NCBI GenBank assembly: GCA_002698995.1
Contig: PAAX01000035.1
Span: forward strand, 5,050-69,049
Reading direction: 5' to 3'
Length of the DNA stretch: 64,000 nucleotides
From: Ignavibacteriota bacterium
GTDB lineage: Bacteria; Bacteroidota; Ignavibacteria; Ignavibacteriales; Melioribacteraceae
Part shown: positions 5,507 to 40,761 of the stretch, in pieces
How positions within the stretch are numbered: the stretch's first letter is position 1
How the letters are laid out: each line of letters opens with the position of its first letter
Program-made: the position numbers and the translations under genes
The notes under the pieces: model-generated
The model's input: only the letters and a program-made list of their open reading frames with translations
Database searches by the model: none
Told to the model about the DNA's origin: nothing

Positions 5507-5554
5507 GCGGGGCCGACGAGACTCGAACTCGCGACCTCCTGCGTGACAGACAGT
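5507..5554 (-). repeat. Left attachment site: 48-bp 3' half of tRNA-Asp (GTC)
   Basis: On the minus strand it reads from the anticodon loop CTGTCAC through GCAGGAGGTCGC, the T arm GAGTTCGAGTCTC and the acceptor CGGCCCCG. No D arm or 5' acceptor precedes it, so it is a tRNA fragment, not a gene; no CCA is encoded. The same 48 bp occur without a mismatch at 35784-35831. This is the usual att core left by a tRNA-targeting tyrosine integrase. Confidence 0.8.
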
Positions 5555-5636: not shown

Positions 5637-6671
5637 ATGTTTCTTTCTAAGGATTCCAAATCACCATACTTTCAAGTCATTTATTTTGTTAACGGAAAAA
5701 GAACAAAGATTTCAACTAAAACAAAGAATAGGAAGGAAGCTGCAAAATTTCTTAAATCATTTGTACCTAAATCTAAGGAACAACCACAACAAGAAGCACA
5801 GCTCAAAGAAAAAATTACGACCATAAAACTGAATGAGTTTTACGAGGAATACAAAACCTTTATCAATAATACGTATTCCGAAAAATACTTTTTGAAAGCT
5901 GTTAAACCATCATTTGCAGCACTTAAAAAACATATTAATGATTTGCCTTTGCAAATGATTACAACCAGAATAATCGATCAATTTATTTCGGCATCTGCTG
6001 CCAGTTCTAAACACTCAGCCTCTCTATATTATCGCACACTTAAAGCAGCATTTAATAAAGCAATAGTTTGGAATTACATTCAAGAAAACCCATTCAATAA
6101 AATCAAAGCTCCAAAGGTCCCTAAATCATTTCCGGTATTTATTTCAGAGAGTGAGCTTTTAATAATACTTAGCAATACACAAATGCAATTAATGAAAGAC
6201 ATTTTCACAACTGCATTTTATACCGGTATGCGGCTGGGGGAACTGTTAAATATGCGCTGGAACTGGATAAACTTTTCAGAGAATATCATCACAATTAAAA
6301 ATTCAAGTGAATTTTATTCCAAAAATAAGCGTGAACGTATAATTCCAGTTCATCCAAAAGTTAGCAGCATTTTACAATCAATTTATCAATTCGGCAAAGA
6401 TCAAAATGATTTAGTCTTTTTCCGTAAAAAAAATATCAAGCTAAATGAAGATTTTGTAAGCAAGCAATTTAAAAAAGCAGTTAGGGAAGCAAACCTAAAT
6501 GATAAAATTCATTTCCATTCTTTGCGCCATTCCTTTGCTTCGGCTTTGGTTCAACGTGGTATTTCTCTCTATGCAGTTAAAGAATTATTGGGGCATGGCA
6601 ACATCAAAACAACTCAAATTTATTCACACTTGCAAAAAGATAATTTAATGGCAGCAGTAAATTTATTGTAA
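5637..6671 (+). CDS. Tyrosine recombinase (site-specific integrase) of the island
   Basis: 344 residues. N-terminal arm-binding region (YFQVIYFVNGKRTKIST), a SAM-like core-binding domain at about 63-160, and a catalytic domain with R199 (TGMRLGEL), H294-x2-R297-H298, H320 (LLGHGN) and the nucleophile Y329 (TQIYSHL). All catalytic residues are present. ATG is preceded by AAAGGAG. It lies directly beside the tRNA-Asp att core, pointing into the island, so it is the enzyme expected to move the 5507-35831 element. A paralogue sits beside the second att copy. Confidence 0.92.
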   Translation: MFLSKDSKSPYFQVIYFVNGKRTKISTKTKNRKEAAKFLKSFVPKSKEQPQQEAQLKEKITTIKLNEFYEEYKTFINNTYSEKYFLKAVKPSFAALKKHINDLPLQMITTRIIDQFISASAASSKHSASLYYRTLKAAFNKAIVWNYIQENPFNKIKAPKVPKSFPVFISESELLIILSNTQMQLMKDIFTTAFYTGMRLGELLNMRWNWINFSENIITIKNSSEFYSKNKRERIIPVHPKVSSILQSIYQFGKDQNDLVFFRKKNIKLNEDFVSKQFKKAVREANLNDKIHFHSLRHSFASALVQRGISLYAVKELLGHGNIKTTQIYSHLQKDNLMAAVNLL

Positions 6672-11749: not shown

Positions 11750-12712
11750 TTGTCAAATGCTTCTGGAACAAATAAAATTGTAAATTTCGATTTCATTGAA
11801 TTATGTAAAAGCTACTTAAAAATTGCTTATCCTAATCTATCAGTAATTGATGCAAATTCCTCTGTTCCAATTAATGCTTATGCTTTTAATTCCGATTCCA
11901 TTTTTAGTATCATATCTCTAAATTCATCTCATCAGATTAGTAAATTTATTTCCAAGGATATTTCTACATTAAACAGTTCAAAATATGCTTCTACTTCTTT
12001 AATTTATTTTGTTGATTTAAAGGATGAAGCCGATAAGAGCACTCTTGATTCGTTAGCTTCATCTCTCTCTAATAATGATTATAATGTATCAATTTATTCT
12101 TCTTCTTTTTTATATCAAAATATTGCTCGTTATTTAAATCAATTCCACTCTAAATCAAACAAATTACTTTCTGATGATTACAGTTTACTGAATGACACCG
12201 ATGAAGATGTTGAATCAGTTTTTCTTTCAATGGTTAAATTTGTTGCTTCTAAAAAGGATTTTAATAAAGTTATCCCCATCCCTTCAAATAATTTAATTCA
12301 GCTGAGAGACAAAATACGCCTAAACTTTTCTCCTCATTTACAAATATCCGTTTTAAATAATTTCCATAAACACTGGAATATCAAAATGAAGCTGGATAAT
12401 TTCATCTCAAATAACTTTCATAATTATGAAGCACAGCTGTATTCAATACTTTTAGATATTCAAAACTCCTTTATATTCTATGAATATAATCGTGACGCTG
12501 ATGTTGAGTATCCTGTCAATAATCCTCAGTTTTTTCATATTGCAGCTGATAATCTTGGCCCTAATGAATTTAAGCATGATCCTCGATATAGATTAACTTC
12601 TATGGCTTTAGTTCTTTATTTCTTTGAGTATTGTGATTTTGGAACAAAATCAAATTTAGATGCACCTTCTCTTTTTACAACTTATGTGAGTGAAGATGAT
12701 AATTCCAAGTAA
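11750..12712 (+). CDS. ABC-three-component system, first component
   Basis: 320 residues with a TTG start preceded by a weak GGTGG. Ser/Asn-rich, no catalytic motif seen; the C-terminal 90 residues (ADNLGPNEFKHDPRYRLTSMALVLYFFEYCDFG) look like the conserved C-terminal domain of ABC-3C component proteins. The gene overlaps the middle-component gene. Components of this type are thought to be effectors or sensors bound to the ATPase. Assignment rests mainly on gene order with the two following genes. Confidence 0.6.
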   Translation: MSNASGTNKIVNFDFIELCKSYLKIAYPNLSVIDANSSVPINAYAFNSDSIFSIISLNSSHQISKFISKDISTLNSSKYASTSLIYFVDLKDEADKSTLDSLASSLSNNDYNVSIYSSSFLYQNIARYLNQFHSKSNKLLSDDYSLLNDTDEDVESVFLSMVKFVASKKDFNKVIPIPSNNLIQLRDKIRLNFSPHLQISVLNNFHKHWNIKMKLDNFISNNFHNYEAQLYSILLDIQNSFIFYEYNRDADVEYPVNNPQFFHIAADNLGPNEFKHDPRYRLTSMALVLYFFEYCDFGTKSNLDAPSLFTTYVSEDDNSK

Positions 12713-12947
12713 ATACGAATTACTTAAGCATAATTCGCTCTTTATCGGGGCACTCGTTTTAGATCTGCTTAAACAACAACCACTAAATTTCTTTTCACTA
12801 TACAACAAAATATATTATGACAAGAGGAGAAAAATTTCTTATCTGAACTTACTCGATACTCTTACTTTTCTTTTCTTAGCAGATTTAGTCTATTACTCCA
12901 ACAATAAAATTCACTTTAAATATGATTCTCAAAAAACTTTATTTTAA
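12696..12947 (+). CDS. ABC-three-component system, middle component
   Basis: 83 residues, beginning MIIPSKYELLKHNSLFIGA and ending as a small winged-helix-like fold (LTFLFLADLVYYSNNKIHF). This matches the short middle component, probably of the MC6 type, that lies between the effector and the DUF2326 ATPase. It overlaps the preceding gene by 17 nt and the following one by 26 nt, so the three are translated as a unit. Confidence 0.65.
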   Translation: MIIPSKYELLKHNSLFIGALVLDLLKQQPLNFFSLYNKIYYDKRRKISYLNLLDTLTFLFLADLVYYSNNKIHFKYDSQKTLF

Positions 12948-14706
12948 ACCAAAAAAATTCTTTGACGTTATCGAGTTCAAACCCGGTCTCAATGTAATTT
13001 ATGCTCATTTTGATGATGATACTCCAGATGTAAAAAGAAGTAGCGACTCTCTCCATGCAATTGGGAAATCTACTTTCTTAGATTTAATTCTTTTTGCATT
13101 AGGCTCTGATTTTAATGAAAAATCTCTAAGCCGCCTTTATAACGCTTATCAAAAAAGAATTATTAGTGGGTTATATGTTGTCCTTGAATTTTCACATAAC
13201 AATATTAACTATATAATTCAAAGACCATTTTATAATGATCGCAGTAACATATTGTTTGGCTTTACTAAGGGGTCCTTAAAAAAAATGACTCTGTATCAAA
13301 TCAGAAAAGAACTCTTCAACATCTTCTTCTTTAAAGAGGAATACAAAAATTACTTCGATCACAATTGGTATCAGCGTTTACTTAGCTTTTATGTTAAAGT
13401 TAAAAAAAGGGATGAGCTTTTTAATGATCCATTAAGGTTTTCAAAGAATATTAAGGAAGCTGATATAATTCCATTTCATTTTTTCTTATTAAATATTGCC
13501 AACTCACTTCCTCTGCAAATTAAAGAGGTCAACCAATCTCTAAGTGATCTTAACAGTCTAATAAATGTCAATGAAAAATACTTAAAGACTAAATCCGGTA
13601 TTAGAAACATTAACGAAATAATCATTCAGCGTGATAAATTATTAAAGAAATTAAATGCTGCTAAAAAAAGGTTATTAGATTTTGAACTCATAGAAGATTA
13701 TAAATCTTATGAACTTGAAGCCGATGAAATAACTAAACATATCAAGGAACTTTGGTTCTTGAATTCTCTTGATAATAAAAGAATCTCAGAGCTTAACCAA
13801 TTAAGCAACGAGGCTTCCATTGCCGCTTTTAATGATAGAGACTATGTAATAAAGATATACGAACAAGTAAACTCACTTCTTGCTGAAAATGTTGAAAAGG
13901 AAATATCTGCAGCAATAAAATTTAGGCAATCTCTCTTTTCTTCTCGTAAAGTTTTTATCCAAAAAGAAATAAAAAATCTTAATGGTAAAATTCTTAAAAG
14001 AGAAGAAGCAATAAAAAAACTTAGCGATAAACGTAAATCTATTTTTGATACTCTTACTAAACTTGATGCTCTTGGTGATATTAAAGAGGCTTTCAAAAAA
14101 ATTGAGTCCCTTCAAGCAGAAATTTCTGTTTATGATTCTGATTTAAGTGCTATAAATAACTTCAAAAAAGGTCTTAGCAAGGAACATGAAAAAGCAGATA
14201 AACTCCACCAAAGCATTCCTAAATATTTAAGTGAGGTTCAGCCTCAAATTGATTCATTTAATAATACTCTTAATGAAGTGAAGAAAAGAATTATTCCCGG
14301 CTCTCATAATATTTCCCTTTTAGATATTACTAATTCTACTGTAAATAATTCATTATCTCTTTCCCTTCTTGAAGGCAGCATTATGGATTCAACCGGTATT
14401 AATCAATGTCGTACTTTGATTTATGATATTTCTATACTTCTTAATAATCTTGATAGTAATGCAAATTCTCCATCGTTTCTCATTCATGATGGTATTTTTG
14501 AAGGTCTAAATGATACACATTTTTCTGCTTTCCTAAAACTCTGGGAAGATTTATTAGAAAATAAGCAGCAGTTCCAATATATTTTAACTCTTAATGACCA
14601 TAATTTTTTTAATGATAAACATGAACTTAAAAAGAAGTTCTTCAATGATTACGTTATTAAAGAACTTACTCCAAACAAACTTCTTTTTGGTGAGAAATTT
14701 GAATAA
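12922..14706 (+). CDS. ABC-three-component system ATPase (DUF2326-type, SMC/Rad50-like)
   Basis: 594 residues. The N-terminal ATPase half has the Walker A variant AIGKST at 46-51, long helical coiled-coil segments lie at about 190-440, and the C-terminal ATPase half holds SFLIHDGIFEGLND (Walker B region, about 518-530) and the YILTLND that follows. This split layout is that of SMC/Rad50-like ABC ATPases with the DUF2326 domain. In ABC-3C systems it senses nucleic acid or invasion and triggers the partner proteins; the defence role is known only by association. Confidence 0.75.
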   Translation: MILKKLYFKPKKFFDVIEFKPGLNVIYAHFDDDTPDVKRSSDSLHAIGKSTFLDLILFALGSDFNEKSLSRLYNAYQKRIISGLYVVLEFSHNNINYIIQRPFYNDRSNILFGFTKGSLKKMTLYQIRKELFNIFFFKEEYKNYFDHNWYQRLLSFYVKVKKRDELFNDPLRFSKNIKEADIIPFHFFLLNIANSLPLQIKEVNQSLSDLNSLINVNEKYLKTKSGIRNINEIIIQRDKLLKKLNAAKKRLLDFELIEDYKSYELEADEITKHIKELWFLNSLDNKRISELNQLSNEASIAAFNDRDYVIKIYEQVNSLLAENVEKEISAAIKFRQSLFSSRKVFIQKEIKNLNGKILKREEAIKKLSDKRKSIFDTLTKLDALGDIKEAFKKIESLQAEISVYDSDLSAINNFKKGLSKEHEKADKLHQSIPKYLSEVQPQIDSFNNTLNEVKKRIIPGSHNISLLDITNSTVNNSLSLSLLEGSIMDSTGINQCRTLIYDISILLNNLDSNANSPSFLIHDGIFEGLNDTHFSAFLKLWEDLLENKQQFQYILTLNDHNFFNDKHELKKKFFNDYVIKELTPNKLLFGEKFE

Positions 14707-14826: not shown

Positions 14827-16632
14827 ATGACGGAAAATATCTTAAAAAATATTAATACGTTTTTGCAAACAAATAACACTGATTATTCTCTGCTTATAAA
14901 TGGTTTATGGGGCAGCGGCAAAACACATTTTCTCAAGAATAAAATAATTTCCCAAATTGAAGCGTTAAAGGTTAGACCAGTTTATATTTCATTAAATGGT
15001 ATTTCAGAAATCACTCAATTAGAACAAAATATTCTTTTTGAACTTCTACGTTTACCTGGTAATAACAGTATAGTCAGTTCTTTATTTAATAATCTTGGTC
15101 TTGGTTTAAAAAAAGTTACTAGTTTTTTTTCGAAAGGATATTTTAGTCTCGATATTACCAAATTAAATCTAGTAAGTTTGTTTCCACTTGACAAAGCAGT
15201 ACTAATTTTTGATGACCTTGAAAGAATAAGTAGTAAAGTGGGAATAGATGAAATTTTAGGTTATATAAATAAAAATTTTGTTGAGCACAAACATGTAAAA
15301 GTTATCTTAATAGGTGATATAACAAATATTACTGACAAAGAAAAATATGATAGTATTAAAGAAAAATTAATTGGAAGAGAATTTAACTTTTATTATAACC
15401 CGCATGAAATTACCACCCTCATCAAACAAAAATATTTAGACCAAGAAAAATTTTTAAATTTTCTAAAAAGAAATGAAGAGAGCATTGCTATACTGATTGA
15501 AGGATACAGCGTTTATAATTTACGATCTATATTCTTTTTTACAGAAATACTTTTGAAAATCTTTTCTTATATACCGGCCAAAGATAAAATTCATGAACAA
15601 GTAATATTGTTTTCATTTCTGCTAACTCTTGAATTCAAAAAGGGTTCATTTCATTTAGATGAATTAAAAAAGAGAAAAGATCTTATAGATTTAGCTAGTA
15701 ATTTGATGTACTATGATATAATAAAAAGAAATACCAGTGAAGATTACATACCTAGTTCATATGGAGAACTGTTTGCTTATAATTACTTAAAAAATACTCG
15801 CAGTTATTATAAATTTTTCTATTCAATTTACAATCTTATTGTACTGGGGATATTTGATGAAGAATCTACTAAAAAAGAATTTTCTGAAAATCCACATGAT
15901 ACTTATAATGAAGCATTGCATAAGTTAAATGAGTTTCTTCTTCTTTCGCAAAAAGAAATAGATGATAATTGCAATAAAGTTTTTGAAGGTCTAAAAAACG
16001 GTATATTCAATGTTTATACACACCAGTACGTTTTTGATACGTTATATCCTTTAGTCTCTAAGCAAATAATTCCTACTACAATGCCAGAATTAAAGGACAA
16101 AGTATTTTCTTCTCTTGATATAGCAAAAAAAAGAAATGAATTTGATCAATTTCATCTTGACTCTGGCGAAATGAACTTTTTATTAAATGACGATTCAAAG
16201 GAAGTTTTCAATCATATTAAGAAATTGCATATTGATTATTTTAATCAACAAAAGAACTCCCTAATCAATACCATTCTTGCTAAACTTGAGAAAGATAAAG
16301 CAGATTACTCGAAAATTATTCATTCCTTCCTTAATGTGAAATTTTCAACCTATTTTATTTCAGCAACAATTATTACAAAATTATCTAATGCTACAAATTA
16401 TAGTATTATTAAATTTGCTAGATTTTTAGCAGAAAAATATAGGTATGATGATTATAGGACAATTGCAGATATCCCCTTGCTAGAGGAAATTAAAAATTAT
16501 AACGATAATGTTATTGTAGATACAAATACTTCTCCTTTGCTTAAAGAAGTTTGTATTGATTTTAACAGAATGTTAAATATTGCTTTATCTGAGTTGAAGA
16601 AGCGTGTACCACAACAAATTACTAATAATTAG
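14827..16632 (+). CDS. KAP-family P-loop NTPase
   Basis: 601 residues. Walker A GLWGSGKTHF at 26-35 and Walker B KAVLIFDDLER at 123-133 match the KAP NTPase family, as does VILIGDIT further on. The C-terminal 350 residues are helical and without recognised domain; no transmembrane insertion is evident, although many KAP proteins have one. It ends 12 bp before the methyltransferase gene, so it is probably co-transcribed with the restriction-modification set. KAP NTPases are frequent in defence islands as signal-transducing ATPases. Confidence 0.75.
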   Translation: MTENILKNINTFLQTNNTDYSLLINGLWGSGKTHFLKNKIISQIEALKVRPVYISLNGISEITQLEQNILFELLRLPGNNSIVSSLFNNLGLGLKKVTSFFSKGYFSLDITKLNLVSLFPLDKAVLIFDDLERISSKVGIDEILGYINKNFVEHKHVKVILIGDITNITDKEKYDSIKEKLIGREFNFYYNPHEITTLIKQKYLDQEKFLNFLKRNEESIAILIEGYSVYNLRSIFFFTEILLKIFSYIPAKDKIHEQVILFSFLLTLEFKKGSFHLDELKKRKDLIDLASNLMYYDIIKRNTSEDYIPSSYGELFAYNYLKNTRSYYKFFYSIYNLIVLGIFDEESTKKEFSENPHDTYNEALHKLNEFLLLSQKEIDDNCNKVFEGLKNGIFNVYTHQYVFDTLYPLVSKQIIPTTMPELKDKVFSSLDIAKKRNEFDQFHLDSGEMNFLLNDDSKEVFNHIKKLHIDYFNQQKNSLINTILAKLEKDKADYSKIIHSFLNVKFSTYFISATIITKLSNATNYSIIKFARFLAEKYRYDDYRTIADIPLLEEIKNYNDNVIVDTNTSPLLKEVCIDFNRMLNIALSELKKRVPQQITNN

Positions 16633-22020: not shown

Positions 22021-23037
22021 ATGGTACTTTATTATCAAGACAAAAAACTGTCAGAACAACAATTCAAATCAGAAGCAGAGTTTGAAAACATAATTGTAGA
22101 AAACTCTAAGCTCTTTTTTGGTGATTCATCAATATTCATTGAAACTAAGAAGAAAATTGATTCAAAATTTCTTGGCGGTACTATTCCCGATGGCTTTCTA
22201 ATTGACCTTTCAGATATTGACAATCCCGAATTCTACATTGTAGAAGTAGAATTAGCCAACCATGATTTTTATAAACACATTTTCCCCCAGATAACAAAAT
22301 TCTTCTCTTTTTTCAAGAATCCACAAAGTGTCTCAGAACTCGTAGAAAAAATATTTAACATTATCAATAAGGATTCTTCTTATAAGAAAAGATTAAAATC
22401 ACTTATTAAGTCTCAAGAAATTTACAAATTCTTAAAAGACCTTATAGAAAGTAGCCATAATATTTTATTAATAATTGATGGTGATAAGGACGAGCTTCCT
22501 GAAATCATGGAAACCTATACTGATACTTGGGGATCTATGGTTACTCTAATGCTAATAAAAAAATTCAAATACAAAGATGAAATCATATATTCAGTTCAGC
22601 CAGATTTTAACGACATTCAGTATGGCGATGCTGAATCTACAACACTAAAACGATCCAATAAAGTATTTTATCTAACAGAAGAAGAAAAACTTAACCAAAC
22701 ATCACAAGAAGCTAAAGCAGCATATCTTAAAATCAAATCTGAATTGCTGAAATTAAATGATGAAATTATTTTTAATCCTCAGCGTTACTATTTGTCAGTA
22801 TCATTTATAAGAAATATTGCGTTTTATAAATTCAGAAGGAAGAAAATAAGATTAATAATAAAATTACCAATTGAAGAAGCGAACAAAATAATAAGTAATC
22901 ATAAAATAATTCCGCTATCAGCCTCGGTTCAAAAGTTTTATAATGGTTCTAGTTGTGCAATAGATATCCATAACTCTGATAATCTGGAAGAAATAATAGA
23001 CGCTTTCAAAATATTAATTGAAAAACAATCGACATAA
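22021..23037 (+). CDS. Putative PD-(D/E)XK nuclease-fold protein
   Basis: 338 residues. Residues 15-85 show an E-rich first helix (EAEFENIIVENSKLFF), then IPDGFLID and FYIVEVELANHDFYKHIFPQI, arranged as in DUF91/NucS-like restriction-endonuclease folds (D, then E-x-E). The usual E-x-K Lys is replaced, so activity is uncertain. The C-terminal half is unassigned. Stop and the next ATG are 6 bp apart; it is the first gene of the TIR/Septu operon. Confidence 0.55.
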   Translation: MVLYYQDKKLSEQQFKSEAEFENIIVENSKLFFGDSSIFIETKKKIDSKFLGGTIPDGFLIDLSDIDNPEFYIVEVELANHDFYKHIFPQITKFFSFFKNPQSVSELVEKIFNIINKDSSYKKRLKSLIKSQEIYKFLKDLIESSHNILLIIDGDKDELPEIMETYTDTWGSMVTLMLIKKFKYKDEIIYSVQPDFNDIQYGDAESTTLKRSNKVFYLTEEEKLNQTSQEAKAAYLKIKSELLKLNDEIIFNPQRYYLSVSFIRNIAFYKFRRKKIRLIIKLPIEEANKIISNHKIIPLSASVQKFYNGSSCAIDIHNSDNLEEIIDAFKILIEKQST

Positions 23038-23043
23038 AAGAAC

Positions 23044-23508
23044 ATGAGCTATTCAGTATTTATAAGTTACTCTACAAAAGATCTTGAGACTGTTAATTAT
23101 GTTAAAGATTTATTAGAAAAATATTCTATTCAAGTATATGTTGCAGAATATTCAACTCCTATTGGTGTTGATTTGACAAATCATATTAAAAACAGTATTA
23201 CAAACTGTGATTTATTTGTTTTACTTTGGAGTTCTAATTCTAAAAATTCTGAGTGGGTAACTCAAGAAATTGCACTTGCTCGTGCAAATGATAAAACAAT
23301 AATTCCAGTTGTACTCGAACCTAATTTGGATTTACCGGTTTTCATCAAAAACTTAAAATATCTTGAAGCATATACAAATACTCAGAACGCTTTCGATTAC
23401 TTAAAAAGTTATGTATATGATGCTGCCGAAAAGAAAAGTCGAGTTGACGGCTTAGTTATGTTGGGGCTTGGAGCTGCCTTTTTTTATTTATTAACTTCGG
23501 ATAAATAA
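23044..23508 (+). CDS. TIR-domain protein with C-terminal membrane helix
   Basis: 154 residues. TIR domain 1-125: VFISYSTKD, VAEYSTPIG, LFVLLWS and SEWVTQEIALA, where E75 is in the place of the catalytic Glu of NAD-cleaving TIRs. A short hydrophobic helix (VMLGLGAAFFYLL) ends the protein, so it may sit on the inner membrane. Bacterial TIR proteins deplete NAD or make cyclic ADP-ribose signals on infection. Lies between two putative nuclease genes, with no gap before the next ATG (TAAATG). Confidence 0.82.
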   Translation: MSYSVFISYSTKDLETVNYVKDLLEKYSIQVYVAEYSTPIGVDLTNHIKNSITNCDLFVLLWSSNSKNSEWVTQEIALARANDKTIIPVVLEPNLDLPVFIKNLKYLEAYTNTQNAFDYLKSYVYDAAEKKSRVDGLVMLGLGAAFFYLLTSDK

Positions 23509-24990
23509 ATGCCGTCCCCCTCAGTTATTAAATATTATACTTTTTCAGAAGAAACTCAAATTAAAATAACGGAAGAATTTTGTGTCCACTATATCAAAAC
23601 AATTATTAAAACTTACTCCAGAGAAATACTCCTTCGTGCAATTAGTCAAATCTCTCAAGACCTTGGAATAAGTAATGATCTATCTCGAATAAAAGAACTT
23701 CAGTATAAACATCTGAATATACCAACTGTAAAAAATTTATTTGTTATACATCGTCAAGCCATTCTGGTATTGTTACAATTTATTTTCTCAGTTCCTGAAA
23801 AAGATTTTTCTGATGAAAACAAAATATCTCCTCGTGATATATTTCTTCTTTTTGCTATTATTAATGATTATTTAGATTTTCATGAACATGTAAATGCAAA
23901 AATAGCTTTAAGAAAAAAAATATTTTTTACCTCAATTAAATCAGTCCACCTAATGATGAATGAGAATGATTTGAATGCGTCATTTGAGTTCTTTAAAAAA
24001 TATTATGAAAGAATCATAGAGTTAGGTAGAAAAAATTATTCAGAGCTAATAAAAAGTTATTTGGATGAAGATCTCAATTCGATTCTAAGCATTTTTGATA
24101 AAGTAAGAAACTATAAATACCCAGAAATATTTTCCTTCTTTGATAAATTTGCTGTTATCGAGTATGATAAGATTGACACATTTTGGCAAAATAGAAACCC
24201 TCGTTTTGACATTCCGTTCGAGTATAATTTGCTTGCTCAATATCCTCTTATCAAAAAAGATGACAATTATTTGGTTGCTGATATTTTTAATCTTCTAAAC
24301 TCTTTATTTGTAATTGTTTATGAAATATTAGTTGAAGATGATCGTGAACAATTTAAGGGTTTATTTGGAAAGGAAATAGCGGAACACGTAATAATTAAAT
24401 TTATGGAAAGGATTTTTGCATGTGAACAAATAAGATTTATTAAAGTGGGCTCTAAATCTCGTGAATTCGCTGATGTTGGTATAATTATGGACAACGACAT
24501 TTTTCTTTTTGAAATAAAAACATCAATATTTTCTCGTAAAATGCTTTATTCAACAGATTATGAGAGCTTTATAAAAGCATTCAATAAAAAATTTGTTCTT
24601 GCGGAAGGAATTACTCAACAAATAAAACAGCTAACAGATGTTGATAAAAATTATACTTCGTTTTGTGAATTAGCAGCCATAGACAATTCAAAAGTCTATA
24701 AAATTTATCCAATATTATTAGCATTCGATGAATGTCTCCAATCGTTCTGCGCCAATTGGTATTTATCAACCAGATTTGATAATATTAAAAGAGCTCGACA
24801 TTTAGAACCTTCAAAATATACCTTGTCAAACAACCACATAACAATAACATTCAATGAAATATTCAAACTGAATATGATGAATTATGCTCCAATAGATAAA
24901 TTAAATCTTATTAAAAAATATGCGGATTCTGAAAACAAAGAACCAATGTCATTTATACTTTTTCTACAACACAATAATTTACTTAGATAA
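23509..24990 (+). CDS. Large protein with possible restriction-nuclease domain
   Basis: 493 residues. About 1-290 are helical with no family recognised. At about 320-350 the text KSREFADVGIIMDNDIFLFEIKTS shows a D...E-x-K arrangement typical of restriction-endonuclease folds. The gene is squeezed between TIR (0 bp) and the PtuA-like ATPase (10 bp), so it belongs to that operon. It may be the effector nuclease recruited by TIR or the ATPase. Function is inference. Confidence 0.5.
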   Translation: MPSPSVIKYYTFSEETQIKITEEFCVHYIKTIIKTYSREILLRAISQISQDLGISNDLSRIKELQYKHLNIPTVKNLFVIHRQAILVLLQFIFSVPEKDFSDENKISPRDIFLLFAIINDYLDFHEHVNAKIALRKKIFFTSIKSVHLMMNENDLNASFEFFKKYYERIIELGRKNYSELIKSYLDEDLNSILSIFDKVRNYKYPEIFSFFDKFAVIEYDKIDTFWQNRNPRFDIPFEYNLLAQYPLIKKDDNYLVADIFNLLNSLFVIVYEILVEDDREQFKGLFGKEIAEHVIIKFMERIFACEQIRFIKVGSKSREFADVGIIMDNDIFLFEIKTSIFSRKMLYSTDYESFIKAFNKKFVLAEGITQQIKQLTDVDKNYTSFCELAAIDNSKVYKIYPILLAFDECLQSFCANWYLSTRFDNIKRARHLEPSKYTLSNNHITITFNEIFKLNMMNYAPIDKLNLIKKYADSENKEPMSFILFLQHNNLLR

Positions 24991-25000
24991 AGGTTTTAGT

Positions 25001-26503
25001 ATGTTTAAACTTCTCACTTTGCAACTACAAAATCACCCCTTCCTAGGCAATTTAAAACTTAAATTCACTGACATAGATGAATATAAAAATGGTCCGTATA
25101 CTACAGTGATAATTGGTCCAAACGGCACTGGTAAAAGTCAAATTCTTAGAATGATTGTAAACATTTTTCGTGAATATGATGAATCGCTAAAACTTAATCC
25201 AAATTCTATTCCGTCTTATCCTGATTATAAACAAATCAACAGATATGCAGATACAAAATTCATGATCAGTTTTTCAGTAAATGAAACTGAATTTCTGTTT
25301 ACCAACTACTCAAAATCAAGTCAAGATAAAGAGAACGATTTTAACACACACATGAAGAGTAAATACTTCCACCCAAACAGAGTAATAGCTAATTCAATAC
25401 TGCTCAACGATCGATTCCCTATGATCAATAGTTCAGAAGACAATATTTATCAATACATGGGCGTGAGACGTAGTCCACAAGTTGCTGGTACTCGAGATTA
25501 TATAAAGAAAATTGTAAATGATTTTTCCAAAATTGCAAATAAGCCAAATTTCCAAAATCAAATTGTCCAAATGCTTCAATTCTTGGGATTCAAAAAAACA
25601 TTTTGGATTTCACATTACCCAAAGAGAAAAAATATTTTCTTTACTGGTAAGTTAACAAAAGAATACTTTCATAAATATTTTACAAATTGGCAAGCATTTT
25701 CAAGTCGTAGGACTGAACCATGGAGCATTTCATATTACCAGAAGATTCATAAAAATAAAATATTAATAAGCGAATTGGTTGATTTTATTAATTTTATTAC
25801 AATGAAGAAAAAACATATAAGTAGCAGAACTTGGGTCTTTCTATACAATATACTTGACAATAATATTGACTTGAAACATCGATTTGAACTTTTAGATCAT
25901 TTAAGGAAACTAGATATTTTAAGTTATCCTGGTATAGAAGTAGAAAAGGGTGATCATTTTGATATAGAAGAAACAAGTTCTGGAGAATACCATTTTTTGT
26001 TATCATTTTTAGGTATCCTTAGCCGCATACAAGAAAATTCTTTAATTCTTTTAGACGAACCGGACATAAGTTTGCACCCCAACTGGCAAATGAAATATAT
26101 AAATGCATTAAAATCTATTTTCTCTGAATATAATTCATGTCATTTTATAATTGTTACACACTCTCATTTCCTAATATCAGATTTGAAACCTGAAAGCTCA
26201 TCTTTAATTGCATTAACAAAAGATCAAGAAGGAATAATTTCTCAAATTGAAGTTCCCAAGAACACTTATGGTTGGTCTGCTGAAGAGATTTTATATAGTG
26301 TTTTTAATGTTAAGTCAACGCGAAACTCCTACATTGAGTATGACCTTACTAAGTTATTGACGCTTATCAATAAAAATTCAGATGATATTGAAAGTATCGA
26401 GAGTATACTCCAAAAACTTTATCATCTTAAAATAACTGAAGGTGATCCATTAAATATTATTATTGAAAAAACCGAAAAATATTTAAAGGACTTCAATGCT
26501 TAA
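25001..26503 (+). CDS. ptuA: Septu-like ATPase (PtuA-type AAA/ABC ATPase)
   Basis: 500 residues. The start at 25001 (MFKLLTLQL) is chosen because it opens the typical N-terminal strand; the frame runs open further upstream inside the previous gene. Walker A IGPNGTGKS at 38-46, a signature-like SSGEYHFLLSFLGI near 326, and Walker B LILLDEPDISLHPNWQ near 346 with a VTHSHFL switch. Overlap of 8 nt with an HNH nuclease gene is the standard Septu order. PtuA forms oligomers that hold PtuB and release it when ATP falls (family knowledge). Confidence 0.75.
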   Translation: MFKLLTLQLQNHPFLGNLKLKFTDIDEYKNGPYTTVIIGPNGTGKSQILRMIVNIFREYDESLKLNPNSIPSYPDYKQINRYADTKFMISFSVNETEFLFTNYSKSSQDKENDFNTHMKSKYFHPNRVIANSILLNDRFPMINSSEDNIYQYMGVRRSPQVAGTRDYIKKIVNDFSKIANKPNFQNQIVQMLQFLGFKKTFWISHYPKRKNIFFTGKLTKEYFHKYFTNWQAFSSRRTEPWSISYYQKIHKNKILISELVDFINFITMKKKHISSRTWVFLYNILDNNIDLKHRFELLDHLRKLDILSYPGIEVEKGDHFDIEETSSGEYHFLLSFLGILSRIQENSLILLDEPDISLHPNWQMKYINALKSIFSEYNSCHFIIVTHSHFLISDLKPESSSLIALTKDQEGIISQIEVPKNTYGWSAEEILYSVFNVKSTRNSYIEYDLTKLLTLINKNSDDIESIESILQKLYHLKITEGDPLNIIIEKTEKYLKDFNA

Positions 26504-27098
26504 TATTACTCGACGTTTTTCTCTTTCTAAAAAGTCTAAGGCTATTATCAAAAAACATAAAATAAAGAATGGGGGTATATTAAAGATTCAGTCATGGGAT
26601 AAGATTAGTAAGAAGGTTAAAAATGAAATATCAAAAAAGCTTTTTTCAATTAATGGATTTAAATGCACCTACTGTGAAAGAGATTTGGTAGGTTTGACTC
26701 CTGGTATTGATCATTTAGCGAACAAAGCTGCTTATCCTGAATTCACATTTGTACCTGTAAATTTATTCTATAGCTGTAATTATTGTAACTCCTCATCAGT
26801 CAAAGGTCAAAAAGAAACCATCAATAAATTATCACCGTTTTATTCTCATTGTGACTTCAAAATAGTCCACCCCTATTATGATAATCCAGATTCAGAAATA
26901 TTTTATCAAGATATAGATAGAATATTTATTGATTATGCAAGGTGTACCCAAAAAGGGAAAAATACTATAGATTTTTTTAATCTTTCAAGTTATATAATGA
27001 CAAATATTAGATCAAGGCAATTAATATTGGAGAGGCTTAATCCACTACTTCCATCAGATGAAAAAAAACTTATAAATGAAACAATAGCTTATAAATAA
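26496..27098 (+). CDS. ptuB: Septu-like HNH endonuclease (PtuB-type)
   Basis: 200 residues. HNH fold with zinc Cys pairs C57-x2-C60 and C94-x2-C97, the active-site DH at 72-73 (GIDHLANKA) and N89 (PVNLFYSCNYC). Length and the position just behind the ATPase match PtuB. Expected to cut DNA or tRNA once released by the ATPase. The last gene of the five-gene operon; a 82-bp gap follows. Confidence 0.78.
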   Translation: MLNITRRFSLSKKSKAIIKKHKIKNGGILKIQSWDKISKKVKNEISKKLFSINGFKCTYCERDLVGLTPGIDHLANKAAYPEFTFVPVNLFYSCNYCNSSSVKGQKETINKLSPFYSHCDFKIVHPYYDNPDSEIFYQDIDRIFIDYARCTQKGKNTIDFFNLSSYIMTNIRSRQLILERLNPLLPSDEKKLINETIAYK

Positions 27099-27180: not shown

Positions 27181-27624
27181 ATGTCGACTAAAGACAAAGT
27201 TAAAACTAAAACTAACGGCTACAACACAAACCTCGCATCAGAATATTACGTTCTCTCAGCCCTATACCGCTTAGATTTCGATGCCTATATTACACTCGGC
27301 AACAAAAAAAGTATAGACATTATCCTAAACCTCAACGACAAAAAACAAATTACAATAGACGTAAAAGGACTAAAGGGAAATGGCATGTTCCCAATAGATA
27401 ATGTTAATACAGATATTAAAAAACCGAATCATTATATAGTCTTCGTCAATTATCTTAACAAAATTAAAGACCCAACGTCAGTGCCGGAAATCTTTATTTT
27501 ACCACACAACGAAATCAAAAAATACATTTACATAAATCCCAAAGGAAACAGAAAAGGCATTTACCCCAGCAGACTCCGTAAAGAATGCAGCAAATACAAA
27601 AACAACTGGGCTATATTAAATTAA
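27181..27624 (+). CDS. Small PD-(D/E)XK-like protein
   Basis: 147 residues. Layout as in restriction-endonuclease folds: E21 in the first helix (NLASEYYVLSALYRL), D46 after a GN-x-K turn (NKKSIDIIL) and D60-x-K62 (ITIDVKG). It has no other domain and may be a standalone nuclease. Codon use is more C-rich than its neighbours, hinting at a different origin. It is followed after 24 bp by the cold-shock-domain gene, so the two probably form a unit. Confidence 0.6.
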   Translation: MSTKDKVKTKTNGYNTNLASEYYVLSALYRLDFDAYITLGNKKSIDIILNLNDKKQITIDVKGLKGNGMFPIDNVNTDIKKPNHYIVFVNYLNKIKDPTSVPEIFILPHNEIKKYIYINPKGNRKGIYPSRLRKECSKYKNNWAILN

Positions 27625-27648
27625 TTTTAATTAAAATAAGGGCAATAA

Positions 27649-30114
27649 ATGTTTACTCATAAAGGCAAAATTAAGTTTTTCGATAAACGAAAAAACAATT
27701 TTGGTTTCATCACTGATATCATTTCTCAGAATGGAGCAATTGAAGCCGATATTTATTTTAGTGGTAATGATATAATCTGTCCTAAAAATCTTATCTCTGA
27801 AATGTCTATAGTTGTTTTCTCTACTATTGTTCGTTCTAATAAATTGAATGCAATAAATATTTCTAGTTTTCAAAATTTATCTCTTTCTGAAAAAAAGGGT
27901 GTTTTATTTTTACTTTCGGGTGAAGATCTATTATATCTATCCATAAATTTAATTATCAATGGGTTTAGTTTTTCTGAAAAAGAAAAGAATTTTATTTTAG
28001 ATAATGCTATTGATGCTTTTCGAAGTAGTCCAAATTCAATTTCTTATAGAATAATTAATTTTCTAGATAGTTCTTCTCAAAAAAAATTACTTCTAGAATT
28101 TCTAAACAACTGTTCTGATTTTGATAAAATAAAACTTATTAATGATTCTTCTCTACTAAATATTGTTTCCGCACATTGGCAATTTGAAAAAGAACATTTT
28201 ACTGACAATTTAATCAGAGAGTTTTTAAAAGATGATAACTCTAAGCTAATATCAGAAAGCTTTATAAAGAAATATTTATCACTTTGCAATAATTATTCAG
28301 TATGGACAAACGTTAGATTCTTTTCATTAACTAATGACTATATGCAATTTTATAATTATTTATCTTCACTTAATAACATTGATGTCGAGTTTACTACTAA
28401 TCTTGTAAAAGCTATTCAACAAATCACTCCAAAACAATCTCATATTTCTTTCTTTAAAGTCTTTCTCAAAGTTTATAAACAAATACCAACTAAACTTACT
28501 TTTTTGGCTGCCATCAATTTGTTGAAATTTTTAATAATCGAGTTTTCACTGGATCCACTCAAAAGGGAGTTGTATGAACTTATTATTAATACAGACTTTA
28601 ACACTTCAGCTGATTTTATGGCGGCAGCAGAATGCGCTTCTTTAGTCGATGAATATGAATTAATTTTTAAACATTTGGCTAGATTTTATTCAGTAATAAA
28701 TCAACAATTGACTGATAAACATAAAATAAGTTTGTTGACTAGTTCAAATAGTGAGTTAATTCAAAAAATTCTATCTTCATGGGAATTTTCAGATAATTTA
28801 TCTTCTACAAACTTGTTTTCAATAATATATAAAAATAAAAAGTATTTACCTTTTGCTAAAGAAGTTAAACGCATAGTGCATAACCTTTTTCCACAAATGC
28901 CATATTACAGTGGGTCTTCTTACTTTGTTAATGAATTTCTTGAATACGTGAAGTTCTATAATGATACTGAATCATTCGAACTTTTTATCAATACTACTGA
29001 ATACTTTACCGCTGAAATAATTGCTATTTTCGTTGAATACAGTTCCAAAACTTATTTTAGTGATCTACTTCGTGATATATATGTTGCCACTTCAAGTGAT
29101 TCTCTTAAAGCAAAAATTGAATTATTATCTTTTCTAACAAAGTCTTCTTTTTTTCCCAAAAAAGATTATCTTCTATATGTCACTTCTCTTTGCAATTCTT
29201 TTTTACAACAGCTAATAATAAAAAGAATCGTTTATTACTTTAGTATGAATAAGAATTCATTTCAAGAATTCCATGATTTAGTAGAGTCTATTAATTTTAC
29301 TGACCTCAGTAGCTTATTATTAAAAAATTATATTATTTCAAAACCTGCAGATAAAATATCTGCTTTAAATATGCTTTCTAATGTATTTAAGTTGCATTTA
29401 GAGAGGCTTAAAACTATTTCAAAAAGTAATGATACATTTGAAAACTTATATCACATAAATATACTAGTAAAGGATTGCCATGGACGCAAATTATATAATA
29501 AAAATTTATGGCAGAAAGAAGGTATTAAAAGGTATTATGTAGATAAATTTAATTTTGTAGAACCCTCTGTCAATCTAAATATATTTTGTGAAGGTCGTTT
29601 TTGGAAAACTGAAGAACTTTATGATTCTGTTACAAAAAAATCTTTTCAAACTAATATTTATTGGTGTCGTGGTGATATTTGTTATTGTCCCAATAACTCA
29701 GTTGACACTAAACTACCTTCAGCAGATTGGACTTTATTAGAAATTTCAAAAATATTAAAGATTAGTTTAGAACCATTATTAGTTAGTTATATCGCTGGTT
29801 GGGCAAATAGAATGAATGAAATAGTCGATAAACTTAAATGTACAACCTGTAATTCCTTTTTGAGACCCAAACCATTTGATCCCAAAATTTTAGGCCATTA
29901 CGCAGTCCCACTTTTTTATTGTTTGAATGATCAGTGCCAAGATTTTAAGAAAGATATTCGTTTTACGCATTGTCTTAATAGCAAGTGTGGATGTTTACTT
30001 GACAGCCGTGAACTTAAACAATGCACAAATAATTGGTTAATCTGCCCACAATGTGGTTCTTGTTGCCCAGAACATTCTGGTATCGAATATTCTTCTAAGT
30101 TTGTTGAGAAATAA
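27649..30114 (+). CDS. Large protein with N-terminal cold-shock domain and C-terminal zinc ribbons
   Basis: 821 residues. Residues 1-67 resemble a cold-shock/OB domain (HKGKIKFFDKRKNNFGFI is the RNP1-like strand). Residues 70-620 are helical, Leu/Ser/Phe-rich and without recognised motif. The last 100 residues hold Cys pairs: CTTC, CLNDQC, CLNSKC, CPQC and a closing CC, enough for two or three zinc ribbons. I do not recognise this architecture. A single-strand nucleic-acid sensor at one end and a zinc module at the other, beside a putative nuclease and inside a defence cluster, suggest an RNA/ssDNA-sensing immune protein. Inference. Confidence 0.6.
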   Translation: MFTHKGKIKFFDKRKNNFGFITDIISQNGAIEADIYFSGNDIICPKNLISEMSIVVFSTIVRSNKLNAINISSFQNLSLSEKKGVLFLLSGEDLLYLSINLIINGFSFSEKEKNFILDNAIDAFRSSPNSISYRIINFLDSSSQKKLLLEFLNNCSDFDKIKLINDSSLLNIVSAHWQFEKEHFTDNLIREFLKDDNSKLISESFIKKYLSLCNNYSVWTNVRFFSLTNDYMQFYNYLSSLNNIDVEFTTNLVKAIQQITPKQSHISFFKVFLKVYKQIPTKLTFLAAINLLKFLIIEFSLDPLKRELYELIINTDFNTSADFMAAAECASLVDEYELIFKHLARFYSVINQQLTDKHKISLLTSSNSELIQKILSSWEFSDNLSSTNLFSIIYKNKKYLPFAKEVKRIVHNLFPQMPYYSGSSYFVNEFLEYVKFYNDTESFELFINTTEYFTAEIIAIFVEYSSKTYFSDLLRDIYVATSSDSLKAKIELLSFLTKSSFFPKKDYLLYVTSLCNSFLQQLIIKRIVYYFSMNKNSFQEFHDLVESINFTDLSSLLLKNYIISKPADKISALNMLSNVFKLHLERLKTISKSNDTFENLYHINILVKDCHGRKLYNKNLWQKEGIKRYYVDKFNFVEPSVNLNIFCEGRFWKTEELYDSVTKKSFQTNIYWCRGDICYCPNNSVDTKLPSADWTLLEISKILKISLEPLLVSYIAGWANRMNEIVDKLKCTTCNSFLRPKPFDPKILGHYAVPLFYCLNDQCQDFKKDIRFTHCLNSKCGCLLDSRELKQCTNNWLICPQCGSCCPEHSGIEYSSKFVEK

Positions 30115-35783: not shown

Positions 35784-35831
35784 GCGGGGCCGACGAGACT
35801 CGAACTCGCGACCTCCTGCGTGACAGACAGT
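35784..35831 (-). repeat. Right attachment site: identical 48-bp tRNA-Asp 3' fragment
   Basis: Base-for-base copy of 5507-5554, again lacking D arm and 5' acceptor, so it is also a fragment. Immediately right of it is a paralogous integrase with its own phased repeats GTGGGTACA at 35874 and 35886, which makes this point both the right end of one element and the left end of another. Confidence 0.78.
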
Positions 35832-35913
35832 CGCATTCCTTCATTTTCTCTCTAATTTCCCAGCATTTCACCAGTGGGTACACTTGTGGGTACATCCGGA
35901 AGGAGTATCTAAA

Positions 35914-36951
35914 ATGTTTCTTACACCACCTAATTCAACAAGACGCTACTATCAATTAGTTTATTTCGTAGATGGTAAGAGAACCAAAATTTCAACAAGA
36001 ACAACTGACAAAAGGGAAGCGGAAAAATTTCTAAAATCTTTTGTCCCTAAACCGAAAGAAAAGAGAACCGAATCAGAAGCACCCAAAAAGAAAAATGATT
36101 CCATAAAACTCAGCCTCTTTTTTGAAGAATATAAAACTAATGTACGCAACACATATTCTGAAAAATATCTTAAGAAAGCAGTCAAACCTTCTTTTGCAGC
36201 TTTACAAAAACACATAAAAGATATGCCCCTTAATCAGATTTCAACAAGAATCATAGATCAATTTATATCCTCAGCCTCAGCAAGTTCAAAACATTCAGCT
36301 TCACTTTACCACCGCACCTTAAAAGCAGCATTTAATAAAGCTGTAGTTTGGAATTATCTTGAAGCTAACCCTTTCAATAAAATTAAAGCTCCCAAAGTTC
36401 CGAAATCCTTTCCTGTGTTTATTTCAGAAAGTGAACTAATTATGATTCTTAACAATACTCAAATGCAGCTAATGAAAGATATTTTCACAACTGCCTTTTA
36501 TACCGGAATGCGTCTTGGTGAATTAGTTAATATGAAATGGAACTGGATTGACTTCACAGAAAATATCATCACAATTAAAAACTCAAGCGAATTTAATTCC
36601 AAAAACAAACGCGAAAGAATAATCCCAATTCATCAAAAAGTACAAACCATTTTGCAAACTCGTTTTCAACTTGGCAAGCTTACAAATGCCCTTGTCTTTA
36701 ATAGGTATAAAAGTATAAAATTAAATGAGGATTTTGTAAGCAAACAATTTAAGAAAGCCGTAAGAGCGGCAAAATTAAATGATAAAATTCATTTCCATAC
36801 ACTTCGTCATTCTTTTGCTTCTGCTCTTGTTCAACGTGGAATTTCTCTTTATGCTGTAAAAGAATTGTTAGGTCACGGAAATATTAAAACAACTCAAATT
36901 TATTCACATCTTCAGAAAGATAATTTGTTGGATGCAGTAAATCTACTATAA
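35914..36951 (+). CDS. Second tRNA-linked tyrosine recombinase, paralogue of the island integrase
   Basis: 345 residues from the ATG at 35914, which has GGAAGGAG 8 nt upstream. Closely similar to the integrase at 5637 along its whole length (for example YHRTLKAAFNKAVVWNYLE and the C-terminal HFHTLRHSFASALVQRG are near identical). All catalytic residues are kept: Arg in TGMRLGEL, H-x2-RH, LLGHGN and Tyr in TQIYSHL. The upstream repeats have diverged to GTGGGTACA, so it may use its own arm sites. No cargo follows before the flanking genes, so its element seems truncated. Confidence 0.9.
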   Translation: MFLTPPNSTRRYYQLVYFVDGKRTKISTRTTDKREAEKFLKSFVPKPKEKRTESEAPKKKNDSIKLSLFFEEYKTNVRNTYSEKYLKKAVKPSFAALQKHIKDMPLNQISTRIIDQFISSASASSKHSASLYHRTLKAAFNKAVVWNYLEANPFNKIKAPKVPKSFPVFISESELIMILNNTQMQLMKDIFTTAFYTGMRLGELVNMKWNWIDFTENIITIKNSSEFNSKNKRERIIPIHQKVQTILQTRFQLGKLTNALVFNRYKSIKLNEDFVSKQFKKAVRAAKLNDKIHFHTLRHSFASALVQRGISLYAVKELLGHGNIKTTQIYSHLQKDNLLDAVNLL

Positions 36952-38190: not shown

Positions 38191-38275
38191 TATACCATTA
38201 ATATGAGTTACAGTTTCCTTGTTCAATAATGTTCTGAGAGTATTTTTTAATTTCATCTGCTGGATAAACAAATAA
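38191..38275 (-). pseudogene. Duplicated 3' end of the inositol-phosphate synthase gene
   Basis: On the minus strand it encodes LFIQQMKLKNTLRTLLNKET and VTHIN, against LFIQQMKLKNTLRTLMNEET and ITHIN at the end of the synthase at 39451. The DNA is about 90% identical over 76 bp, including silent positions. Only the last 27 or so codons are left; no start. A remnant of a second synthase copy or of a segmental duplication that spawned the EEP gene between. Confidence 0.75.
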
Positions 38276-39450: not shown

Positions 39451-40761
39451 CTAAGCCAATTTTGCATTAATATGAGTTATCGTTTCTTCGTTCATTAATG
39501 TTCTGAGAGTATTTTTTAATTTCATCTGCTGAATAAACAAATCGTGTTCAGGAACAACGTTAGGAGAATGAATAGGACTTTTGAAGTAAAATGAAAGCCA
39601 TTCTTGTATTCCATTCAACCCGGCTCTCTGAGCTAAATCCATAAATAAAACCAAATCTAATACTATCGGTGCAGCTAAAATAGAATCTTTACATAAGAAA
39701 TTAACTTTAAGCTGCATCGGATAACCGAGCCAGCCGAACATATCAATGTTATCCCATCCTTCTTTATCATCACCTCGCGGCGGGTAATAATTTATTCTTA
39801 CTTTGTGATAAAAATTTCCATAAAGATCAGGATAGAGTTCAGGCTGCAAAATTGTGTTAAGCACGGAGAGTTTACTTTCTTCTTTTGTTTTGAATGAGCC
39901 GGGTTCGTCCAAAACAAGACCGTCTTTATTTCCGAGAATGTTGGTTGAAAACCAGCCCTTTAAACCAAGCATCCTGGCTTTAAACATTGGAGCCAGTACG
40001 GTTTTTATCAAGGTTTGACCGGTCTTAAAATCTTTGCCCGCAACAGGTACTGAATTTTTTTTAGCGAGTTCCAATATTGCCGGGATATCAACTGTTAAAT
40101 TTGGAGCTCCATTTATAAACGGTATCCCTTCCGCAAGTGAAGCATAAGCATATAACATACTCGGAGCGATATCGGGATGATTTTCTTTCATACCCTTTTC
40201 AAAGCTTTCTATGCTTTGATGGACTGAATTCTTCGTTATATAAATTTCAGTGCTTGCAGTCCAAATAACAACTGCCCGATTCAGCTTGTTCTCGTTTTTG
40301 AATTTTCTAATATCCTCGCGCAATTGTTCCATCAACTCATATTTATTTTTCCCTTTTTTAATATGAGTGCCGTCAATGTTTTTTACATAATTTTTGTCGA
40401 AGACACCTTTCATTGGTAAAATTCTTTCCAATTCTTTCGAAACCGATTCGGTGTCCTTCTCATTGAGAACCCTAGCTTCTTTAGCTGCTTCTAAGCAATC
40501 ATAATTATTTATATCCCAACCGCCGACTACTAAATCTTCCAATTCCGCAAGCGGAACAAAATCTTTAATCATCGGGAAATTATTCTCAATACGTTTTCCT
40601 ATTCTTATAGTTGCCATCTGTGTAAGCGAACCAAAGGGTTTACCGAATCCGTTTCTTATTTGCAGCAAACCGGCAGTAAAAGTTGTAGCAACTGCTCCGT
40701 TTAGCCCGACTAATAATATACCAAGTTTACCTTCCGGTTTTTGAATTTTGATATCAGACAT
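39451..40761 (-). CDS. ino1: Inositol-3-phosphate synthase
   Basis: 436 residues. NAD-binding GLNGAVATTF near 18-27, GGWDINNYDCLEAA, IWTASTEIYI and NKDGLVLDEPGSFKTKEESK (the active-site Lys region) are those of myo-inositol-1-phosphate synthase, which turns glucose-6-phosphate into inositol phosphate. Full length for the family. Followed closely by the EEP gene and preceded by a HAD phosphatase (31-bp gap). It supplies the head group of the lipid pathway coded by the operon. Confidence 0.92.
   Translation of the reverse strand: MSDIKIQKPEGKLGILLVGLNGAVATTFTAGLLQIRNGFGKPFGSLTQMATIRIGKRIENNFPMIKDFVPLAELEDLVVGGWDINNYDCLEAAKEARVLNEKDTESVSKELERILPMKGVFDKNYVKNIDGTHIKKGKNKYELMEQLREDIRKFKNENKLNRAVVIWTASTEIYITKNSVHQSIESFEKGMKENHPDIAPSMLYAYASLAEGIPFINGAPNLTVDIPAILELAKKNSVPVAGKDFKTGQTLIKTVLAPMFKARMLGLKGWFSTNILGNKDGLVLDEPGSFKTKEESKLSVLNTILQPELYPDLYGNFYHKVRINYYPPRGDDKEGWDNIDMFGWLGYPMQLKVNFLCKDSILAAPIVLDLVLFMDLAQRAGLNGIQEWLSFYFKSPIHSPNVVPEHDLFIQQMKLKNTLRTLMNEETITHINAKLA

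Follow-up and report, generated by a model that had tools for sequence, protein, structure and literature searches.

An uncatalogued family of cold-shock-domain proteins found in and beside bacterial defence operons

Do two adjacent genes in a defence region of an Ignavibacteriota bacterium form a single immune unit, or do they belong to separate histories? The question is posed by a stretch of 64,000 nucleotides (G000:C4:5050-69049, contig PAAX01000035.1 of a 4.2-Mb genome), hereafter the window, in which a gene for a 147-aa protein (27181..27624, + strand) is followed on the same strand, after a gap of 24 bp, by a gene for an 821-aa protein (27649..30114, +). An initial annotation, made from the sequence, had described them as a small PD-(D/E)XK-like nuclease and a cold-shock-domain sensor of single-stranded nucleic acid that might act together, and its coordinates, reading frames, protein lengths and intergenic distance are all exact. 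Here we characterise both proteins, follow their relatives into other genomes and weigh the possible roles of the larger one.

Results

The two genes are the last in a run of same-strand genes whose first member begins no later than position 14827, and they may be co-transcribed. The run encodes an NTPase of KAP type (PDC-S49), proteins resembling PDC-S18 and TIR proteins respectively, a 493-aa protein and the Septu proteins PtuA and PtuB, and from its sequence we read a Mod/DUF3800-like/Res set as a putative type III-like restriction-modification (R-M) system; an RloB/AAA (AbiL-like) pair is convergent to the run. The Septu genes (PtuA, 24920-26503, +, PADLOC E 6.5e-108; PtuB, 26496-27098, +, E 3e-31) constitute a known system immediately upstream of the two genes, so that the proposed setting in a defence cluster is borne out. 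The PtuA reading frame as listed begins within the preceding gene, and its PADLOC alignment starts only at residue 28, where an internal Met probably marks the true start. The genes for the PDC-S18-like, TIR and 493-aa proteins (22021-24990) have almost no intergenic space and are a possible unrecognised TIR system; just upstream of the run, at 11750-14706, a 320-aa gene is followed by one for a DUF2326 SMC-like protein, possibly a further defence pair.

The defence region carrying the large gene rides on an integrative element of ~30.3 kb. Its ends are marked by a perfect 48-bp att-like direct repeat that resembles a tRNA 3' end (left copy, 5507..5554, +; right copy, 35784..35831, +), each copy being followed by a tyrosine integrase. 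The element bearing the defence cluster has its integrase at 5637..6671 (+), which shares 75.6% nucleotide identity with the integrase region at 35884-36951. Five copies of the repeat core are present in the genome, four on the window's contig (G000:C4 10564, 40841, 92024 and 130592) and one elsewhere (C21 24179), and the window's contig seems to carry a tandem stack of integrative elements of ~30, 51 and 39 kb. A separate 78-bp repeat is present in two copies with 92% identity (38196-38273 and 39465-39542), the second of which overlaps the end of the gene at 39451-40761.

The small protein is predicted to be a nuclease of the PD-(D/E)XK superfamily. It has the catalytic-type residues E21, D46, D60 and K62 that the initial annotation had singled out as E21, D46 and D60-x-K62; in a nine-member homologue alignment E21, D46, V61 and K62 are invariant, and position 60 is occupied by D, Q or S. 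The AF2 model, for which IMG/VR homologues were supplied (pLDDT 78.6), contains a restriction-endonuclease-like alpha/beta core, and its best structural match is I-Ssp6803I (Z 11.6), Hjc Holliday-junction resolvases scoring ~9. Invariant active-site-type residues and structural matches together identify it as a PD-(D/E)XK protein. With I-Ssp6803I, Hjc and further small nucleases of this fold it has the E/D/xK residues in common, at a sequence identity of only 10-16%.

Homology searches place this solitary protein in a scattered family. Matches were found in 10 of 390 genomes of the phylum, including the window's own, one of them probably spurious; further relatives occur in phage contigs (IMG/VR) and on a Pantoea plasmid, and the relative nearest to the window protein (60%) is encoded in overlap with the end of a type IIG restriction gene. 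PHROG 29029, a group of phage proteins of unknown function, matches the window protein with E 8.6e-11 and the Pantoea relative with E 4.6e-73; unlike these phage proteins, the window copy is chromosomal and lies in a defence island. A tblastn search against phages returned no match to the 147-aa protein, although PHROGs and the IMG/VR contigs contain relatives. A copy on a Klebsiella variicola plasmid (L007:7983-8429) is interrupted by a stop codon, and at L041:719-1667 two diverged PD-(D/E)XK relatives are arranged in tandem.

The large protein combines a cold-shock domain, a presumably helical middle and a Cys-rich C-terminal module, and has relatives in 10 other lineages. The claimed cold-shock-like N-terminus was confirmed with an HMM built from the relatives' N-termini only, the window sequence having been left out: it matches residues 6-76 (27664..27876, +) with E 1.5e-10, and the 821-aa protein is its sole match among 69 window ORFs. 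The Pfam cold-shock domain (CSD) model scores above cut-off in two relatives (G037 and G727) and does not match the window protein. The C-terminal module (residues 647-809; 29587..30075, +) is supported by a tree and by an alignment of nine proteins with 17 invariant columns, namely ten Cys, one His, E648, N720, R721, L729, D785 and R787, its motifs following the order CEGRxW ... C..C ... NR ... CxxC ... HC ... DSR ... CxxC. The description of a helical body followed by a Cys-rich C-terminus thus stands for the Cys module; the helical middle is suggested by amino acid composition and by a single-sequence AF2 model of very low confidence (pLDDT 38.5). This middle region varies in length, and family members range from 469 to 1308 aa. 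A HARP-like segment precedes the Cys-rich module in five relatives, in three of which Pfam PF07443 is matched at sub-threshold level, and an HMM built from the five finds no match in the window protein.

The family, which we refer to as the CSD family, is uncatalogued: none of Pfam, NCBIfam and PADLOC has a model for it. The initial annotation did not recognise the 821-aa architecture, and nothing significant was retrieved for this protein from Pfam, NCBIfam, PADLOC or PHROGs; the 147-aa protein, too, fails to match any PADLOC model, those of PtuA and PtuB included. The sole PDB profile match of the C-terminal module, to DNA polymerase alpha, has an E of 0.025 and was treated as chance. Pfam scans of family members gave no ATPase match, and no effector or catalytic domain was recognised in the large protein. 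It had no tblastn match against phages, and peptide-pattern scans of genome contigs and of viral contigs, with poor patterns that make them weak evidence, found no relatives. No description of the family was found in the open-access literature searched.

Judged from its sequence distribution, the CSD family is rare and horizontally spread: it was found in 7 of 395 genomes of the phylum in one sample, the window's genome included, and in few more in further samples. Comparison of the loci supports its description as a defence-associated family, carried as optional cargo inside or beside DNA-targeting operons of type I R-M, BREX and Wadjet systems and here beside Septu. In one relative (G323) the gene is enclosed in a type I BREX operon that also encodes PglZ and BrxL, where it lies between the pglX-side genes and pglZ, with gaps of ~30 bp; in another (G321) it directly follows Wadjet JetC and JetD. 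On Klebsiella plasmids the gene order is hsdM-hsdS-YecA-CSD-hsdR-SprT, and a relative on a Prevotella plasmid, which has no recognised CSD, lies adjacent to hsdM-hsdS-R, directly 3' of it. Other relatives neighbour the candidate defence genes PDC-S15, S02 and S05 (G227), a PD-T7-4-like gene (G343), an AbiO/Nhi-like helicase ~5 kb distant (G171) or, on a Deinococcus plasmid, a type I methyltransferase ~6 kb off, the annotated Deinococcus protein being short and lacking a clear CSD. PADLOC-recognised genes, known or candidate, were thus found near the family in 9 of 11 lineages, the window counted, compared with PADLOC matches to 0 of 10 proteins in a small control. The G037 and G727 relatives have no recognised defence neighbour, and the window copy, next to Septu, is outside any type I R-M, BREX or Wadjet operon. 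Integrase remnants and an ankyrin-repeat protein of 1655 aa are encoded near the G727 member (L059:12-4979).

E. coli offers the same type I R-M locus with and without the CSD gene. Among 5,426 complete E. coli genomes, 549 have matches to a closely related hsdR and 264 to the CSD gene, the latter covering at least 80% of the gene length in 198 and less than 80% in 66. Comparison of loci L065-L068, L021 and L022 located the YecA/SEC-C gene, with or without the CSD gene, between hsdS and hsdR and distinguished three states: M-S-R (PigCaeca_2), M-S-YecA-R (E2386 and KH_005) and M-S-YecA-CSD-R (2EC1, ATCC 8739 and 005008, the last with a broken hsdM); the annotation of ATCC 8739 gives its hsdS as frameshifted. 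Since hsdR is 93-100% identical across these states from just inside its start and the locus exists in all three, the CSD gene is an optional, exchangeable piece of defence cargo or accessory. A simple count of substitutions among E. coli and Klebsiella CSD copies gave dN/dS of ~0.10-0.20, and its product is therefore probably under purifying selection.

The nuclease and CSD genes are found together at no examined locus besides the window: none of the CSD loci of relatives has the nuclease, and none of the other examined nuclease loci has the CSD gene. A lack of co-occurrence among homologues is what the initial annotation itself had named as speaking against its proposal, and the examined loci show it for the pair. 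The nuclease gene is also foreign in codon usage, with a GC3 of 0.395 compared with 0.19-0.25 for ten other genes of the run, the CSD gene among them (z 5.6). Its own amino acids encoded with its neighbours' codons would give an expected GC3 of 0.215, and 0 of 10,000 simulations reached the observed value. Because its GC3 is so far outside the range of its neighbours, the nuclease gene most likely arrived separately. The absence of co-occurrence and the foreign codon usage leave a conserved two-gene system, the central claim of the initial annotation, unsupported; most likely, to judge from these comparisons, the two genes were independently acquired and lie on a mobile defence element.

Discussion

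What, then, might the large protein do? A precedent for its position is PrrC, a latent anticodon nuclease encoded in the EcoprrI type IC R-M operon, which is held by EcoprrI and released when a phage inhibits EcoprrI (PMC3874165, PMC2610378). In both cases an optional extra gene is embedded in a type I R-M operon, as in the E. coli and Klebsiella relatives (the Prevotella gene is adjacent, and the window copy is not so placed), and a guard logic is proposed. The two differ in that PrrC has an ABC ATPase and an anticodon-nuclease domain, neither of which Pfam scans detected in the CSD family, and in that the CSD family, for which guard activity is only a proposal, also occurs in BREX and beside Wadjet.

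Two other kinds of system resemble the protein in its parts. TOTE/TALON systems have a TPR-CSD protein (PMC12458937), in which a cold-shock domain is fused to a region of helical repeat type in a defence context, as may also be the case in the 821-aa protein. In the latter, however, the CSD is N-terminal and a Cys-rich module forms the C-terminus. For its middle, Pfam gives no significant match of any kind, and the single-sequence model is of very low confidence. TBP (PF00352) is absent from the window's genome, control genomes being positive, and no YprA-like helicase was found among the neighbours scanned with Pfam and PADLOC; identity with TOTE/TALON was rejected for want of TBP. Type I CoCoNuTs, which are McrBC-type, predicted RNA-targeting defence systems, possess cold-shock-like domains and zinc ribbons (PMC11090510) and so share a cold-shock-like domain and zinc-ribbon-type parts with the 821-aa protein in a defence context. 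The coiled-coil nuclease tandem of type I CoCoNuT is absent here, Pfam and PADLOC scans of the island proteins revealed no McrB GTPase or McrC partner, and CoCoNuT/McrBC identity was rejected for lack of McrBC. Membership of either protein in Septu was likewise rejected, as neither matches a PtuA or PtuB model and the actual PtuA and PtuB are the upstream genes.

We tentatively favour, at somewhat less than even confidence, the reading that the large protein is optional cargo in or beside DNA-targeting defence operons and serves as a nucleic-acid-binding accessory guard or adaptor, the nuclease being separate. It is favoured because the protein has a domain of single-strand-binding type at one end and, at the opposite end, a Cys-rich module that presumably binds nucleic acid, and because the family takes positions comparable to that of PrrC; we infer the role by analogy with the position of PrrC. 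The N-terminus would bind single-stranded nucleic acid and the C-terminal module DNA or RNA, while the protein as a whole would act as an accessory guard or adaptor of its host defence system. It might sense intermediates of that system, or the system's inhibition during infection, and in answer would modulate that system or set off a second line of response, much as PrrC acts from within the EcoprrI operon; the nuclease encoded next to it would not be required. The main weakness of this reading is that the large protein lacks a recognised effector domain. Also against it are the G037 and G727 relatives with no defence neighbour, the location of the window copy outside type I R-M, BREX and Wadjet operons, the small number of lineages, eleven, and the small size of the control. 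A stronger version, in which the family is a system-independent plug-in guard that docks onto type I R-M, BREX, Wadjet and perhaps Septu, monitors their intermediates or inhibition and adds a second response, is speculative and, in our estimate, rather improbable.

Two alternatives are each unlikely, and about equally so. The large protein could be an RNA-binding regulator of its host operon, its cold-shock domain acting as an RNA chaperone, antiterminator or translational regulator. The presence of that domain at the N-terminus and the location of the gene within the operons to be regulated would suit this role, but a length of 469-1308 aa with a conserved Cys-rich module far exceeds what a simple regulator needs, and the same locus has operons without the CSD gene. 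Alternatively, its gene could be a defence gene in its own right that is simply carried along in islands and operons and whose product works without the neighbouring genes, as the great differences among the host systems, the two relatives without recognised defence neighbours and the optional nature of the gene in E. coli would allow; its recurrent position within operons, flanked by hsdS/YecA and hsdR or by the pglX-side genes and pglZ, goes beyond a shared island and speaks against this. Least probable is the immune pair of nuclease and single-strand sensor, for which the common strand, the 24-bp gap and the defence element speak, but which is opposed by the lack of co-occurrence at any other examined locus, by the outlying GC3 of the nuclease gene and by nuclease relatives in phages and beside other restriction genes.

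The pair reading being unsupported, what deserves to be retained is the uncatalogued family itself, which is embedded in defence loci and has a member in E. coli that lends itself directly to testing. The locus also shows that lying side by side in a defence island does not mark two genes as a functional pair. Since the E. coli locus exists without insert, with YecA, and with YecA and the CSD gene (as in ATCC 8739), the role of the family is open to ordinary genetics. The recurrence of such a family in operons of unrelated DNA-targeting systems suggests that they have an accessory function in common which the annotation of defence genes misses, and if the plug-in guard reading is true, the family would serve bacterial immunity as a general checkpoint module.
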